Part shown: in pieces, positions 15,565 to 30,371 of the stretch
Numbering within the stretch: the stretch's first letter is position 1
How the letters are laid out: every line of letters begins with the position of its first letter
NCBI RefSeq assembly: GCF_003730195.1
Contig: NZ_QWGG01000002.1
Location: forward strand, 186,001-250,000
Origin: Halosimplex salinum
GTDB taxonomy: Archaea; Halobacteriota; Halobacteria; Halobacteriales; Haloarculaceae
Direction: 5' to 3'
Length of the DNA: 64,000 bases
Notes under the pieces: generated by a model
Seen by the model: the letters and a program-made list of their open reading frames with translations, nothing else
What the model was told of the DNA's origin: nothing
Database searches by the model: none
Program-made: the position numbers and the translations under genes

Positions 15565-16151
15565 CAGTCCTCGCCCTCCGCGGCGCTGGCGTCGCCGCGG
15601 TCGAGCCCGTCCCACTCGCGCTCGACGATGCCGTAGAGGTCGGCGTCGACGTACTCGCCATCGACGTAGAACGTCTCGCGGCGGCGGCCCTCGTGTTCGA
15701 AGCCGACCTTCTCCAGCACGGCACGTGAGCCGTCGTTGAACGCCAGGACGCGAGCGTCGACCTTGTGGAGGCGGCGCTCCGTGAAACAGTAGTCGACGAG
15801 CAGTTCGGCCGCCGCCGTGGCGTAGCCGTTGCCCTGGTGGTCCGGCGCGATCCAGTAGCCGATCTCGACGCTCCCGCGCTGTTTGTGCAGGTCGAACAGG
15901 AACGCCTCGCCGACTCGTTCGACGGAGTCCGGGTCACCGTCGTCGGCGCAGACGAGAAACGTCTCGCTCTCGTCGGAGTCGGTCATCTGCTCGAGCCGGT
16001 CGGCCACGTCGTCCGCCGAGGCCGGGGACCCGCCGCCGAACCCGGGCCGAACGGCGGGGTGGTTCGCGTGGCGGTGGAAGAACTCGTAGTCGGACTCCTC
16101 GACGGGGCGGAGGGTGACGCCGTCGCCGCGGAGGAAGACGGGACCGGGCAT
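15564..16151 (-). CDS. GNAT N-acetyltransferase (RimJ/RimL type), copy 2
   Basis: A 195-residue acetyltransferase starting MPGPVFLRGDGVTLRPVEESDYEFF, almost the same N-terminus as the downstream gene. The acetyl-CoA loop is canonical (APDHQGNGYATAAAELLVDYCF). The conserved tail FEHEGRRRETFYVDGEYVD matches the downstream FTEEGRRSDYYFVGGEYVD. The pair clearly arose by tandem duplication and is translationally coupled by a one-base overlap. Confidence 0.9.
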   Translation of the reverse strand: MPGPVFLRGDGVTLRPVEESDYEFFHRHANHPAVRPGFGGGSPASADDVADRLEQMTDSDESETFLVCADDGDPDSVERVGEAFLFDLHKQRGSVEIGYWIAPDHQGNGYATAAAELLVDYCFTERRLHKVDARVLAFNDGSRAVLEKVGFEHEGRRRETFYVDGEYVDADLYGIVEREWDGLDRGDASAAEGED

Positions 16152-23739: not shown

Positions 23740-24588
23740 ATGAACGTCGCAGACGTAATGACGCCCCGCGAGGACCTCGTCACGGTCGAACTACCCGGCA
23801 CCCGGGACGACGTCCTCGAGTACCTCCAGGAGCGGTCCTTCTCCTCCGTCCCCGTCGTCACCGAGGGCGACGACGGCGAGGAGTTCCGCGGTCTCGTCTC
23901 CCGGGACGCGCTGATCGACCAGCCCGACGAGGACCAGCTGGCCCTCCTCGTCGAGGAAGTGCCGACCGTCACCGCCGAGGCGAGTCTCGAGGAGCTCGCG
24001 ACCCTGATGGTCGACGAGCGCGCGCGCCGGGTCCCGGTCGTCGACGGCCGCCTCGAAGGGATCGTCACCATCACCGACGTGGTCCGCGCGATCGCCACCG
24101 GCGACGTCGACGGCGACGTGACCGTCGAGGAACTCGCGACCACGGAAATCAACTGCGTCTACGATGGCGCACCGCTCCACGTGGCCGAGCGAGAGCTCTC
24201 CCACGGCAACGTGCCCTACGGCGTCGCGCTGGACGAGGAGGGGGAGACCAGCGGGATGATCACCGAGGTCGACATCATCGACGTGGCCCGCGTCGTCGAC
24301 GGCGAGGAGGAGACCGGCGACAACCTCGCCAGCGACGACGACGACTGGAAGTGGGAGAGCGTCAAGGCCGTCGGCAGTCGCTACATGCCCACCCGGAACG
24401 TCGAGATCCCCGCGGGCCCGGTCTCGGAGTTCATGACCAGCGATCTCGTCACCATCAGCGGTCGGCGCACGGTCCAGGAGGCCGCGCAGCTGATGATCGA
24501 ACACGACATCGAGCAGATCCCGATGGTCTCGGGCGACGACCTCGAGGGCATCGTCCGGGACATGGACCTGCTGGAGGCGCTTCGATGA
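23740..24588 (+). CDS. Protein with four CBS domains
   Basis: A 282-residue cytoplasmic protein made of two CBS pairs. Typical CBS starts are visible at ADVMTPREDLVTVELPG, VPTVTAEASLEELATLMV, TTEINCVYDGAPLHVAEREL and SEFMTSDLVTISGRRTVQEAAQLM. CBS pairs bind adenine nucleotides or S-adenosylmethionine and act as energy or metabolite sensors. A TATA-like cttagtattt sits about 25-32 nt before ATG 23740. Its stop overlaps the glyS start (ATGA), so it is co-translated with glycyl-tRNA synthetase. Confidence 0.9.
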   Translation: MNVADVMTPREDLVTVELPGTRDDVLEYLQERSFSSVPVVTEGDDGEEFRGLVSRDALIDQPDEDQLALLVEEVPTVTAEASLEELATLMVDERARRVPVVDGRLEGIVTITDVVRAIATGDVDGDVTVEELATTEINCVYDGAPLHVAERELSHGNVPYGVALDEEGETSGMITEVDIIDVARVVDGEEETGDNLASDDDDWKWESVKAVGSRYMPTRNVEIPAGPVSEFMTSDLVTISGRRTVQEAAQLMIEHDIEQIPMVSGDDLEGIVRDMDLLEALR

Positions 24589-26369
24589 GCGAGGGCGACA
24601 GCCCGGACCTGGCCGAACTCGCCAAGCGACGCGGTTTCTTCCTGCAGTCCGCGGGCGCCTACGGCGGCGTCTCCGGCTTCTACACCTTCGGCCCGCAGGG
24701 CGCGAGCCTCAAGGACAACATCGAGAACTCCTGGCGCGACCGGTTCACCCTCCAGGAGGGCAACATGGAGATCGACGCGCCGACGATCATGCCCGAACCC
24801 GTCTTCGAGGCGTCGGGCCATCTGGACGGCTTCGACGACATGCTCGTCGAGTGTCCCGAGTGCGGCGAGTCACACCGCGCCGACCACGTCGTCGAGGACA
24901 ACACCGACTACGAGGAAGCGGAGGGCCTCGGCCCCGAGCGCGTCGGCGAGATCATCGAGGAGTACGAACTCGTCTGTCCGACCTGCGGCACCGGCCTCGC
25001 CGGGCAGGCCATCGAGGACTTCAACCTCATGTTCGAGACGAACATCGGCCCGGGCTCGTCCTCGCCGGGCTACCTCCGGCCGGAGACCGCCCAGGGCATC
25101 TTCGTCGAGTTCCCGCAGCTCGCGGAGTACGCCCGCAACCAGCTCCCCTTCGGCGTCACCCAGGTCGGCCGCGCCTACCGCAACGAGATCAGCCCGCGGA
25201 AGTCGCTCCTGCGCGTGCGGGAGTTCACGCAGGCCGAACTGGAGCTGTTCATCGACCCCGAGGACGGCGAGGGCCCCGACCTCTCGTCCGTCTCGGACGT
25301 GGTCGCGCCGTTCTACGGCGTCGACCAGCAGGAGGACGACGACAGCGACCCCCTCGAGATCACCGTCGGCGAGGCCCACGAGCGCGGGCTCGTCGCCGAC
25401 CCGTGGATCGCCTACTACCTCGGCGTCGCCGCGGAGTGGTACGAGTCCATCGGCGTCGACATGTCCCGGTTCCGCTTCCGCCAGCACCTCTCGGGCGAGC
25501 GGGCCCACTACGCCGCGGACTGCTGGGACGCCGAGGCCGAGGTCGACGGCGACTGGATCGAACTGGCGGGCTTCGCCTACCGCTCGGACTACGACCTCTC
25601 GAAACACGACGAGTACTCCGACGAGGACTACACGATATTCAAGCAGTACGACGAACCGGTCACTGTCGAACGGCCCACCGTCGACCCCGACATGAGTGCC
25701 CTCGGGCCGGAGTTCGGCGGCGCGGCCGGCGACGTGGCCGACGCGCTGGAGGCACTCGCCGAGTCCGACCCCGACGCGTTCGAGGACGCCGGCGAGGACG
25801 GCAGCGTTACCGTCGACGTCGACGGCGAGAGCCACGAAGTGCCGGTCAGCCAGACCGGGTTCGCCGTCGAGGAGGTCACGGAGTCCGGCGAGCACATCAC
25901 GCCCCACGTCGTCGAGCCGTCGCTGGGTATCGACCGCGCGCTGTACACCGTCCTCGACCACTGCTACCGCGAGGACGAGGTCGACGGCGAGGAGCGGACG
26001 TTCCTCGAACTCCCCCCGGCGGTCGCGCCGACGACCGTCGGCGTCTTCCCGCTGATGGACCGCGACGGCCTCGGCGAGCACGCCCGCGACGTCGCCGCCG
26101 ACCTCCGCGAACGCGGTCTCTCGGTCGCCTACGACGACTCGGGCGCCATCGGCCGGCGCTACCGTCGCCAGGACGAGGTCGGCACTCCGTTCTGCGTCAC
26201 CGTCGACTACGCCACTATCGGCGAGGCCGAGGACGCATCGGAGGGGGCGCCCGGCACAGTGACCGTCCGCGAGCGCGACACGACCGCCCAGCGACGGATC
26301 CCCGTCGAGGAGGTCCCCGCGACGCTCGAAGCGCTCCGCGACGGCGAACTGTCCTTCTCGGAGCTATAG
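24585..26369 (+). CDS. glyS: Glycine--tRNA ligase
   Basis: A 594-residue class II synthetase of the archaeal/eukaryotic alpha2 type. It charges tRNA-Gly. Seen: the N-terminal RGFFLQSAGAYGGVSGFYTFGPQG, two zinc-type pairs (CPECGES and CPTCG), motif 2 (AYRNEISPRKSLLRVREFTQAE), the glycine-pocket region PHVVEPSLGIDRA and a C-terminal anticodon-binding domain (VGVFPLMDRDGLGEHARDVAADL). The start overlaps the CBS gene by 4 bp. Confidence 0.97.
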   Translation: MSEGDSPDLAELAKRRGFFLQSAGAYGGVSGFYTFGPQGASLKDNIENSWRDRFTLQEGNMEIDAPTIMPEPVFEASGHLDGFDDMLVECPECGESHRADHVVEDNTDYEEAEGLGPERVGEIIEEYELVCPTCGTGLAGQAIEDFNLMFETNIGPGSSSPGYLRPETAQGIFVEFPQLAEYARNQLPFGVTQVGRAYRNEISPRKSLLRVREFTQAELELFIDPEDGEGPDLSSVSDVVAPFYGVDQQEDDDSDPLEITVGEAHERGLVADPWIAYYLGVAAEWYESIGVDMSRFRFRQHLSGERAHYAADCWDAEAEVDGDWIELAGFAYRSDYDLSKHDEYSDEDYTIFKQYDEPVTVERPTVDPDMSALGPEFGGAAGDVADALEALAESDPDAFEDAGEDGSVTVDVDGESHEVPVSQTGFAVEEVTESGEHITPHVVEPSLGIDRALYTVLDHCYREDEVDGEERTFLELPPAVAPTTVGVFPLMDRDGLGEHARDVAADLRERGLSVAYDDSGAIGRRYRRQDEVGTPFCVTVDYATIGEAEDASEGAPGTVTVRERDTTAQRRIPVEEVPATLEALRDGELSFSEL

Positions 26370-26370
26370 C

Positions 26371-26994
26371 GTGACGACACGCGACGAGGTGGCACGGCGG
26401 CTCGTCCACGCCAGCGGGACAGCGGTGCCGCTCGCGTACCTGTTCGTGCCCGCGTTCGAGTGGCGCCACGTCCAGGCGCTGCTGGTCGCCGGCCTCGGCG
26501 TCGCGCTCGTCCTCGAAGTCGTCCGCCTCGTCGTCGGCCTCGACTGGTGGATCTACGAGAAGCTCACCCGCGAGTACGAACAGGACAACCTCGCCGGCTA
26601 CTTCCTGGCCGTGTTCAGCATGGCCGTCGTCGCGCTGGCGTTCCCGCCGACGACCGAGACCATCGTCCCCGGCCTCGACCCGTCCGACGTGGCCGTCCCC
26701 GCGCTGTTGATGCTGACTATCGCCGACCCCGTCAGCGGCCTGCTGGGTTCCGGGGAGCTACGGACGGCCAAGGACGTGACCGTCCTGCTCGTCACCTTCG
26801 CCGTCGCGACCCTGCTCGCGGTGCCGTTCGTCCCGCCGCTGGCGGCAGTGCTCGGCGGCGCGGCCGCGACCCTCGCCGACGGGATCAAGCCCGTTATCCG
26901 CGGCTACGTGGTCGACGACAACTTCTCGATCCCGCTCGCCAGCGCCGTCGTCATGTACGTCGCCGTCGAACTCCTGCCCGCCAGCCCGGTCTGA
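26371..26994 (+). CDS. Dolichol kinase / CDP-alcohol-type membrane protein
   Basis: A 207-residue membrane protein with about six helices, starting VTTRDEVARRLVHASGTAVPLAYL. The cytidylyltransferase/dolichol-kinase signature is visible as TIADPVSGLLG...TAKDVTVLLVTF...AATLADGIKP. Homologues phosphorylate polyprenols for N-glycosylation or lipid synthesis. It uses a GTG start one base after the glyS stop, so it belongs to the same operon. Confidence 0.8.
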   Translation: MTTRDEVARRLVHASGTAVPLAYLFVPAFEWRHVQALLVAGLGVALVLEVVRLVVGLDWWIYEKLTREYEQDNLAGYFLAVFSMAVVALAFPPTTETIVPGLDPSDVAVPALLMLTIADPVSGLLGSGELRTAKDVTVLLVTFAVATLLAVPFVPPLAAVLGGAAATLADGIKPVIRGYVVDDNFSIPLASAVVMYVAVELLPASPV

Positions 26995-27024
26995 GCGGCC
27001 GACGCGCGTTCCGGTCGTCCCGCC

Positions 27025-27318
27025 TCATTCGACCTGATACCGCAGGAGCCCGCCGACCTCGAACGGCTCCGCGAAGCGCGCGCCCCGCTCGCCGTCGTCC
27101 GGGACGACGAGCGTCTCGCCGCCCTGCTCCGCGACGTCGGACTCGATCTCCGTCCGGCGCTGGACCGGAACGTCCGCGGAAACGAGCGCGGTGTCTACCG
27201 CGCCGTACTCGACGGCCCGGTCGATGTCGTCGCTGCCGTAGGCGACCCGATCACCGTCGCGGAGGCGCGCGAAGAAGTCGTCGAGCGACCGCGTAAAGTC
27301 GGTTTCGCGAGCGTATGA
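27025..27318 (-). pseudogene. pelA: 3' remnant of the mRNA surveillance gene pelota
   Basis: The minus strand between 27318 and 27025 encodes an uninterrupted Pelota/eRF1 domain 3: ETDFTRSLDDFFARL, then RVAYGSDDIDRAVEYGAVDT, ALVSAD, DVAEQGGETLVVPDD and the C-terminus VGGLLRYQVE, stop TGA. Intact Pelota is about 350 residues; domains 1 and 2 are absent. The frame stays open upstream only to a TAG at 27390-27388 and contains no ATG, GTG or TTG, so there is no usable start. Pelota rescues stalled ribosomes with aEF1alpha/ABCE1. Whether an intact copy exists elsewhere cannot be seen. Confidence 0.75.
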
Positions 27319-27398
27319 TAGTATGACACAGCAAGGTCGCGGTTCGGGCTTGCCACGGCAGGCCCGGCGCTCTTGCTCGAACCGCGGCTACGACGACC

Positions 27399-27722
27399 AT
27401 GCTCGAAGACCCGAACTGGCAGGACTACCTCGGCGAGACCGTCTCCGACCGCGGGAAGCCGATCGGGACGGTCGTCGACTACGACGACGAAGTGGGCGAG
27501 TTCTATCTCGAACCCTCGCCCGAGATCGACGCGAACACGTGGGACGGGCTGGGCTGGGGCGACCACGCCGAGTACGACGTGAACTGGGAGGACGTGAACT
27601 ACGAGCGCTGGCAGAACGGGGAGTCCGACCTCCCCGTCGACTACGACGAGTGGCCCTGCACGCTCCCGAACGCCCGGCTGGAGGACAGCGAAGACGGCCT
27701 CGCGCTCGTCGATCTGCCCTGA
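27399..27722 (+). CDS. Acidic hypothetical protein, PRC-barrel-like N-terminus
   Basis: A 107-residue, strongly acidic, Trp- and Asn-rich protein starting MLEDPNWQDYLGETVSDRG. The segment GKPIGTVVDYDDEVGEFYLEP resembles the PRC-barrel strand pattern. The rest (WDGLGWGDHAEYDVNWEDVNYERW) is not a domain I recognise. Composition is typical of haloarchaeal cytoplasmic proteins. It lies 90 bp upstream of hef on the same strand. Function unknown. Confidence 0.7.
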   Translation: MLEDPNWQDYLGETVSDRGKPIGTVVDYDDEVGEFYLEPSPEIDANTWDGLGWGDHAEYDVNWEDVNYERWQNGESDLPVDYDEWPCTLPNARLEDSEDGLALVDLP

Positions 27723-27815: not shown

Positions 27816-30371
27816 ATGGCGACGACCGACGAGGGAGACGGCATCGAGGGGCCGCTCCTGGTCGACGGATTCCTCGAGGACCGGGGCTACCAGCGCCAGC
27901 TGGCCGAGGCGGCCCTGCGCACGCACACGCTGGTCTGTCTCCCGACCGGACTCGGGAAGACGGCGGTCAGCCTGCTGGTCACCGCCGAGCGACTGGCCGG
28001 CGACGTGGTCAACAAGTCCCTCCTGCTCGCTCCGACCAAACCCCTCGTCCAGCAACACGCCGACTTCTACCGCGAGGCCCTGGAGGTCCCCGACGACGAG
28101 ATCGTCGTCTACACCGGCGACACCCGCCCCGACGCCCGCGCCGACCTCTGGTCGGGCGCCCGGGTCGTCGTCGCGACCCCGGAAGTCGTCGAGAACGATC
28201 TGGTGGGATCGCGGATCGATCTGTCCGACGTGGTCCACTGCACGTTCGACGAGTGCCACCGCGCGACCGGCGACTACGCGTACAACTACATCGCGGAGCG
28301 CTACCACGAACAGGCCCGCGATGCGCTCGCGACCGGGATGAGCGCCTCCCCCGGCGACGACGAGGAGGCCATCCTCGAAGTGTGTCACAACCTCGGGCTC
28401 CGGCAGGTCGAGGTGATGACCGAGGACGACGCCGACGTTGACGCCTACACCCACGAGACGAGCGTCGACTGGGAGCGCATCGAACTCCCGGAGACGGTCG
28501 TCGAGATCCGCGACGCGCTCAACGACGTCATCCAGGAGCGCCTCTCGAAGCTGAAGAAACTCGGCGTGACCAACACCAGCCAGCCGGACGTGTCCGAACG
28601 CGAGATCCAGAAGATCCAGGGGAAGCTCCGGGAGCTGATGAACAACGACCAGTCAGAGGGGTACGAGGGGATGAGCCTGCTGGCGGAGGTGCGGAAGATC
28701 CGGACCGCAGTCACCTACGCGGAGACCCAGAGCGTGGAGAGCCTCCGCCGGTACTTCGAGCGCCAGAAGCAGGCCGCCCGGTCGTCCGGGGCGTCGAAGG
28801 CCGACCAGCGGATGATCTCCGAGCCCAAGGTTCGAGAGGCGATCCGGCGAGCCGAGGACTACGACGACCTGCACCCGAAGTTCCGCCGGACGCGGATGCT
28901 GATAGCCCAGACGCTCGGCATCGAAGGCGGAGAGCGCGTCATCGTCTTCACGGAGTCCCGGGACACCGCCGAGACGCTGACGGACTTCCTGAACGAGCAC
29001 TTCACGGCCCGGAAGTTCGTCGGCCAGTCCGACACGGAGGGCAGCGACGGGATGACCCAGACCCAGCAACAGGACACGCTCGACGAGTTCCGCGCCGGCG
29101 AGTTCGAGGTGCTCGTGTCGACCTCCGTGGCCGAGGAGGGCCTCGACGTTCCCGAAGTCGACCTCGTACTCTTCTACGAACCAGTCCCGACCGCCATCCG
29201 GGCGATCCAGCGCAAGGGCCGAACCGGGCGCCAGACCGAGGGCGCCGTGTCGGTCCTCCTCGCCGAGGACACCCGCGACGAGGCGTACTTCTGGAAGGCC
29301 CGCAACGACCAGAAGCGCATGCGCGAGGAACTGCGCTCGCTGAAGTCGATCACCGGCGAGATCGAGAGCGAACTCACCAGCCAGACGCAGGTCGCCGAGT
29401 TCGACGAGGGCGGGAGCGAATCGGTGAACGCGGGCGAGTCCGCTGCACACGAAACGGGGGGCGAAACCGCATCTACCGGCGGTGACTCCGTATCCGAAAC
29501 CGACGACTCCGCAACCGAAGCGGCGGAGTCCGCAACCGACGGTGAGGAATCGTCAGCGTCCGACGGCGAAGTCGCAACCGCCTCGAAAGCGACCGACGAC
29601 GGCGACGGACAGGCGGGGCTCGACGCGTTCGCGGGGGACGACGATTCGGCGACGGAATCCGCGGACCGGGACGACCCGGAGGGCGAGATCGCGACCGCCA
29701 GCGCCGACGACGAGGAGTCCGTGGAGGTCGTGGTCGACCAGCGCGAACTCGACGCGGCCATCGCGAAGGACCTCTCGCGGAAGGACGAAGTGGAGACTCG
29801 CCTGGAGACGCTGGCGGTCGGCGACTACGTGCTCTCCGACCGGGTGGTCGTCGAGCGAAAGACCGTCTCGGACTTCCTCGACACGCTCACCGGCGGTGAC
29901 GAGCGCTCGATGTTCGAGCAGGTCAAAGACGCGACGCGCTACTACGCCCGTCCGATCGTGGTGATCGAGGGCGAGGACCTCTACGGCGAACGGAACGTCC
30001 ATCCGAACGCGATCAGGGGCGCGCTGGCCTCGCTCGCGGTCGACTTCGGCGCGAGCGTCCTCCGAACGACCGACGAGGACGAGACCACCGAGCTACTCTC
30101 GGTGATCGCCGCCCGCGAGCAGGAGGACGAGGACCGAACGGTGAGCGTCCACGGCGAGAAGAGCTCGAAGACACTCGCCGAACAGCAGGAGTACGTCGTC
30201 GCCAGCGTCGCCGAAGTCGGCCCCGTCACCGCCGAGTCACTCCTGGCCGAGTTCGGGAGCGTCGAAGCGGTCCTGACCGCCGACGCCGACGAGTTGCAGA
30301 CGGCCGACGGCGTCGGCGAGGTGACCGCCGAACGGATACGCGAAGTGGTAGGAAGCGACTACGACGGGTGA
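27816..30371 (+). CDS. hef: Hef helicase/nuclease (XPF/FANCM-like)
   Basis: An 851-residue DNA repair protein that remodels and cleaves stalled forks. The N-terminal SF2 helicase has Walker A PTGLGKT (43-49), a DECH box (FDECHRATGDY) and motif VI QRKGRTGRQ. A long Ser/Thr/Asp/Glu-rich linker (about 530-650) is longer than in thermophilic Hef. The XPF nuclease follows with VVDQRELDAAI, GDYVLSDRVVVERKTVSDFLD (ERKxxxD catalytic motif) and tandem helix-hairpin-helix motifs at the C-terminus (AEVGPVTAESLLAEFGSVEAVL). A TATA-like ggcttaacc is about 27-33 nt before ATG 27816. Confidence 0.96.
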   Translation: MATTDEGDGIEGPLLVDGFLEDRGYQRQLAEAALRTHTLVCLPTGLGKTAVSLLVTAERLAGDVVNKSLLLAPTKPLVQQHADFYREALEVPDDEIVVYTGDTRPDARADLWSGARVVVATPEVVENDLVGSRIDLSDVVHCTFDECHRATGDYAYNYIAERYHEQARDALATGMSASPGDDEEAILEVCHNLGLRQVEVMTEDDADVDAYTHETSVDWERIELPETVVEIRDALNDVIQERLSKLKKLGVTNTSQPDVSEREIQKIQGKLRELMNNDQSEGYEGMSLLAEVRKIRTAVTYAETQSVESLRRYFERQKQAARSSGASKADQRMISEPKVREAIRRAEDYDDLHPKFRRTRMLIAQTLGIEGGERVIVFTESRDTAETLTDFLNEHFTARKFVGQSDTEGSDGMTQTQQQDTLDEFRAGEFEVLVSTSVAEEGLDVPEVDLVLFYEPVPTAIRAIQRKGRTGRQTEGAVSVLLAEDTRDEAYFWKARNDQKRMREELRSLKSITGEIESELTSQTQVAEFDEGGSESVNAGESAAHETGGETASTGGDSVSETDDSATEAAESATDGEESSASDGEVATASKATDDGDGQAGLDAFAGDDDSATESADRDDPEGEIATASADDEESVEVVVDQRELDAAIAKDLSRKDEVETRLETLAVGDYVLSDRVVVERKTVSDFLDTLTGGDERSMFEQVKDATRYYARPIVVIEGEDLYGERNVHPNAIRGALASLAVDFGASVLRTTDEDETTELLSVIAAREQEDEDRTVSVHGEKSSKTLAEQQEYVVASVAEVGPVTAESLLAEFGSVEAVLTADADELQTADGVGEVTAERIREVVGSDYDG

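Follow-up and report, generated by a model that had tools for sequence, protein, structure and literature searches.

Archaeal aRF1 and eukaryotic eRF1 (TIGR03676) are built from domains 1, 2 and 3, with NIKS and YxCxxxF as stop-codon motifs and GGQ as catalytic motif. All three motifs are named in the abstract of PMC2613156. Pelota/Dom34 (TIGR00111) has a domain 3 without a zinc ribbon, and the Dom34 family is described as inactive as a hydrolase (PMC6514570, section 2.2). Many accessory relatives of aeRF-1, with proposed rescue roles, have been described by Burroughs and Aravind 2019 (PMC6514570); in many baeRF families, according to section 2.2 of that paper, two beta-strands replace the zinc ribbon. 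In Methanosarcina barkeri, two release factors exist, of which only one is apparently active in termination, as stated in the part of PMC2943090 used here.

The locus described here lies in a window of 64,000 nucleotides of Halosimplex salinum (contig NZ_QWGG01000002.1) and carries a fragment of an aRF1-like paralog. The family of this paralog is little described, although plasmid records already name it aRF-1. Its intact members share the domain order 1-2-3 with aRF1/eRF1, but their domain 3 has no zinc ribbon, many copies have no stop-codon motifs and some no GGQ, and the fragment in the window consists of domain 3 only. The absence of the zinc ribbon is shared with Pelota/Dom34, whereas the tree sets the fragment and its intact relatives among aRF1-like proteins. 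Like the baeRF-1 and VLRF-1 clades in the sections of PMC6514570 considered, the paralog is an accessory aeRF-1 relative beside a main release factor, but baeRF-1 is bacterial, after one transfer from archaea (section 2.2). Methanosarcina barkeri is likewise an archaeon with two such factors, but of another lineage and in a pyrrolysine context, and it is likened here by description only (PMC2943090, in part). In the part of the literature covered, we found no paper on the haloarchaeal zinc-less paralog or on a plasmid-borne aRF1, and the main text of PMC6514570, as far as covered, has no word beginning with “halo”. As argued below, we are highly confident that the fragment is a pseudogene remnant, i.e. 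the last third of a dead second release-factor gene.

The locus and its states in the genus

The gene order at the locus is glyS, 207-aa gene, X, 107-aa gene and hef, with X as the paralog site (Table 1). The 207-aa gene may be dolichol kinase-like. At X, the minus strand contains an open frame whose larger part matches Pfam eRF1_3 with 46.9 bits (cut-off 25.8), which is far beyond chance. An earlier note, made from this DNA alone, had claimed a Pelota C-terminal domain on the minus strand at 27025-27318, in an undisrupted frame, with no usable start codon and with domains 1 and 2 missing. Apart from the label Pelota (see below), these points hold, and the three motifs quoted for the domain are present in the translation. 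The frame is open over 120 codons and contains no ATG, GTG or TTG; among the near-cognates checked (CTG, ATT, ATC and ATA), there are ATA at 27324, ATC at 27225 and 27147, and CTG at 27045. The codon-recognition domain 1 and the GGQ domain 2, which a class I factor such as aRF1 requires, are absent from the fragment, and as the next gene starts only about 110 bp from the domain, there is too little space for two further domains before it. An Rfam search of 26900-27450 up to an E-value of 1 matched no structured RNA family.

Table 1. Features of the paralog locus in the window.
Feature	Coordinates	Strand	Basis
glyS, syntenic marker (start as read in this analysis)	24585..26369	+	NCBIfam TIGR00389, 630 bits
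207-aa gene, convergent neighbour	26371..26994	+	match in 8/8 genus genomes; no Pfam or NCBIfam family
Open frame without ATG/GTG/TTG	27025..27387	-	frame reading
Remnant of domain 3 (eRF1_3) of the aRF1-like paralog; TGA at 27025-27027	27028..27288	-	PF03465, E 4.3e-12; 63% identity to the C-terminus of the intact G001 copy
Putative former upstream sequence of the paralog, joined to domain 3 by a deletion of ~1 kb	27289..27340	-	alignment to G001 and G003 DNA on either side of the junction
TTGCCACGGCAGGC, conserved upstream of the 107-aa gene	27350..27363	+	7/8 genus genomes; one exact site in own genome
107-aa gene, divergent neighbour	27399..27722	+	tblastn match in 8/8 genus genomes (G007: 24-residue piece only); no Pfam match
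hef nuclease/helicase, syntenic marker	27816..30371	+	NCBIfam NF010337 Hef nuclease, 1056 bits

A comparison of this intergenic region in relatives, as proposed in the earlier note, revealed full, decayed, domain-3-only and empty states. In Halosimplex aquaticum (G001), the full paralog and about 1.8 kb lie between the 207-aa and the 107-aa genes. This copy, which is identical to one in NZ_CP118158.1, has 355 residues with domains 1, 2 and 3, an intact GGQ, a retained YxCxxxF and QIRS in place of NIKS, and its domain 3 is devoid of the cysteine-rich zinc ribbon of canonical aRF1. In G003, the paralog at the same place has lost domain 1, its GGQ is changed to TDD and its C-terminus is altered. 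The window genome (G000) has only domain 3, and four congeners (G002, G004, G005, G006) have only 70-100 bp and no paralog. In G007, a 71% complete genome, a 24-residue piece of the 107-aa gene was found, and no paralog was seen. Thus, an intact homolog exists at the same locus of a relative, together with an inactivating change in the window genome, and the fragment illustrates gene decay in which intermediate stages can be seen. The eight-genome tree from glyS and the 207-aa gene has no starred branch, and independent losses are therefore not countable.

The intergenic region also contains TTGCCACGGCAGGC, some 35 bp ahead of the 107-aa gene. This sequence includes the inverted repeat TGCC-N2-GGCA and is kept while much of the surrounding intergenic DNA varies. 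It may be an operator or a 5' UTR element. A genome-wide repeat was ruled out, as there are only two sites with one mismatch besides the exact one.

Truncation and fate of the remaining domain 3

How did the gene lose its start? In alignments with G001 and G003, the homology of the window DNA passes from the divergent upstream region straight into domain 3. Compared with G001, about 1 kb is lacking, and the junction falls within approximately 27285-27325. From the alignment of these three sequences, we infer that one deletion of this size fused the former upstream region to domain 3, which would account for the missing start codon, and the residues that precede domain 3 in the open frame look like formerly non-coding sequence. 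The ancestral locus would have contained an accessory gene of the aRF1-like type, about 355 codons long, which encoded domains 1, 2 and 3 but no zinc ribbon. In the window lineage, the deletion would then have removed the start codon together with domains 1 and 2, including the GGQ loop of the latter, as well as the very beginning of domain 3, thereby placing the old upstream region directly before the remaining part. The remaining domain 3 DNA is probably untranslated and neutrally drifting, and its frame would still be open because it is short and rich in G+C. Most likely, the fragment thus has no function.

Codon models of domain 3 (seven copies, 89 codons, three topologies) agree with this idea. 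For the window branch, the comparison of an own w with a shared w gave likelihood-ratio test (LRT) values of 6.54, 4.52 and 3.04, and that of an own w with w=1 gave 0.42, 0.31 and 0.19. In simulations, carried out for the first topology only, the observed value was reached in none of 40 replicates under shared constraint and in 15 of 40 under w=1. For the intact G001 copy, w=1 is rejected (14.15, 14.03 and 10.32). The same holds for the G003 copy in spite of its damage (7.68, 10.54 and 13.96), so that damage and constraint can coexist or the damage is younger. As synonymous sites are saturated, with unrealistic w estimates of 0.006, the codon test is weak and its strength depends on the topology, and the branch of the fragment mixes the time before and after truncation; the test is therefore supportive of neutral evolution but not decisive. 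The earlier note had concluded from the open frame that the truncation is recent or that the fragment is under selection, for example as a standalone domain. A recent truncation is doubtful in view of about 0.45 changes per codon on this branch under w=1, part of which may predate the truncation. A very old decay is in turn disfavoured by the GC3 of 0.92 over 89 codons. The open frame itself says little, as the probability of finding no stop in it after 40 random changes is still 0.40-0.50.

Could the fragment nevertheless function as a domain 3 on its own, with translation beginning at a non-standard codon such as ATA 27324, and bind rRNA or compete with aRF1 and pelota on the ribosome? The 120 open codons with a coding-like composition, the conserved core of domain 3 and the old upstream region that is retained directly before it would be compatible with such a role. 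However, there is no standard start codon in frame, w=1 fits the window branch, and the gene is absent in four congeners. Moreover, only four frames among the 81 places of the family (see below) are shorter than 300 aa, and the window's with its 120 codons alone comprises nothing but domain 3, whereas the next shortest (204, 220 and 255 aa) still include some of domain 2, two of the three genes being frameshifted. Two further pieces limited to domain 3, one in G076 and one on a plasmid of Haloarcula marina, are interrupted by a stop or a frameshift. Selection on a standalone domain is therefore unsupported, and we regard such a function as highly improbable.

Still less probable is an assembly or sequencing error that hides a real full-length paralog at the locus. 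The assembly is a draft of 28 contigs, but both flanks are contiguous in a 643-kb contig, domain 3 itself has drifted, and at this locus some congeners have lost the paralog in part or altogether. An intact copy of the paralog elsewhere in the own genome was searched for and not found, nor did a lax full-length profile search of this genome detect any stray paralog domains 1 and 2. This search gave five matches, namely aRF1 in two pieces, the fragment, pelota and a weak match of 53 positions. The latter (C21:62869) belongs to a separate gene and was ruled out as a stray piece of the paralog. The reading as a pseudogene remnant thus agrees best with the state of the locus.

Relation to aRF1 and pelota

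The own genome contains three eRF1_3 matches, which are the fragment, an intact aRF1 on C21 (414 aa, TIGR03676 526 bits) and an intact pelota on C4 (TIGR00111 302 bits). The genes for termination and for Dom34-type rescue are thus intact, and the loss of the paralog is therefore ordinary gene decay. The earlier note had labelled the fragment as Pelota and seen in it a truncated pelA, with a search for an intact pelA as a check. The truncation stands, but with the intact pelota on C4 it is not one of pelA, and the label was not borne out either.

In a tree of 28 proteins, the fragment groups with the copies of G001, G003, G064 and G061 (support 100/99), and the five pelotas are separated from it by a split of 100/100; the exact sister of the fragment (G003, 91/78) is not firm. 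Together with the nearest kin at the same locus, this indicates that the fragment stems from the C-terminus of an aRF1-like paralog that has no zinc ribbon. The full-length gene of G001 at this locus (P0001) agrees, as it scores 261 bits with TIGR03676 (cut-off 234.7) and only 50.6 bits with the pelota model TIGR00111, far below the cut-off of 177.65. The plasmid type is also above the TIGR03676 cut-off with 333 bits, and P0002 is below it with 228 bits. By itself, the fragment has pelota as best NCBIfam match (43.8 bits, under the cut-off of 177.65, a whole-protein score that the fragment is too short to reach), followed by aRF1 with 24.7 bits. That the domain 3 of the paralog shares the absence of the zinc ribbon with pelota may explain this leaning. 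The fragment cautions that the tail of a zinc-less aRF1 can be mistaken for pelota. A remnant of the former pelA of this genome, for which only this best match speaks, can practically be dismissed, as it is contradicted by the intact C4 pelota, by an identity of 33% to this pelota versus 63% to the G001 paralog, by the tree and by the aRF1-type score of the syntenic G001 gene.

The paralog family in Halobacteria

When 391 Halobacteria genomes were searched with a profile of domain 3 (A3), 75 of them had matches at an E-value of 8.1e-23 or better, at 81 places in total. This line was set at a gap in the E-values, and the matches below it have pelota-like lengths, with at least one (G076) being a broken paralog piece. 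With a full-length profile (A2), at least 77 places in at least 72 of the 391 genomes were found at which the match, in contrast to that of canonical aRF1, extends to the model end; one of these places (G070:C2) is partial. The synteny of the window locus was also looked for outside the genus. In 18 small loci of other genera, which extend no more than about 0.5 kb upstream of the paralog, glyS, the 207-aa gene, the 107-aa gene and hef had no match. The same result was obtained for 17 loci from other genera that span 15-17 kb, and for L009 and L098, the second copy of G001. L009 (G001:C1:3284450) is a second, diverged full-length paralog of H. aquaticum that has lost NIKS and YxCxxxF and kept GGQ.

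Decay is also found elsewhere in the family. There are frameshifts in G070:C2 and G414, G163:C1 has no domain 1 and EGQ in place of GGQ, G122 has an internal deletion, the domain 3 piece of G076 (below the A3 line) contains a stop, and the frameshifted domain 3 piece on the Haloarcula marina plasmid is unannotated. Among 19 full-length paralogs (two partial copies and the fragment being omitted), GGQ is present in the catalytic loop of 14, YxCxxxF in nine and NIKS in six; 15 GGQ strings were counted, but that of L028 lies outside the loop. L016, L021, L022, L027 and L028 are full-length paralogs with intact frames and without the catalytic GGQ, and the first four of them form one clade (100/100) within one genus.

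The plasmid-type protein, covered to at least 80%, occurs in 13 plasmid records, ten with more than 90% and three with 56-57% identity. The gene is labelled prf1, “peptide chain release factor aRF-1”, in 11 of these records, and the other two are unannotated. Records of Halostella and Salinibaculum contain an identical paralog protein, and pHME132 of Haloferax mediterranei is also among the 13. From this distribution, the paralog is best described as an accessory gene that moves between families, sometimes on plasmids, and is often lost. As an extra aRF1-type gene that is scattered over Halobacteria, the family is more useful than the fragment, and as it also occurs on plasmids, pHME132 among them, it is open to laboratory tests.

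What could the intact paralogs do? Judged from the motifs, copies with NIKS, YxCxxxF and GGQ are probably alternative release factors that do not contain zinc, those with GGQ only may hydrolyze peptidyl-tRNA on stalled ribosomes, and those without GGQ are probably unable to carry out such chemistry. It is conceivable, if tentative, that the fragment is the fossil of a mobile, zinc-independent second haloarchaeal release factor, which is found on plasmids across families and would keep the GGQ chemistry and domain 3 while the stop-codon motifs fade. Such a factor might serve as a backup terminator, e.g. under zinc shortage or with aRF1 blocked, or as a hydrolyzing factor for ribosome rescue, and it would be gained by transfer and lost by repeated decay.

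The plasmids with L083 (Halostella pelagica CP040680.1, 316,071 bases) and L090 (Salinibaculum litoreum CP046867.1, 316,107 bases) come from different families and are identical around the paralog at 16,036 of 16,036 compared bases, which points to a recent transfer or to mixed cultures from one kind of source. A Natrinema thermotolerans plasmid (CP031304.1) carries an annotated pelota. Halorubrum virus BJ1 (AM491333.1) has a weak match to the paralog (E 1e-7) in a gene annotated as putative cell division protein. Outside the window, C21 of the own genome encodes at L108:1196-2098 (-) a protein of 300 aa that has a long, charged N-terminal part and contains KGGYSQ; by description, it resembles the aVLRF-1 type with its coiled coil and GGxSQ, as given in the part of PMC6514570 considered.
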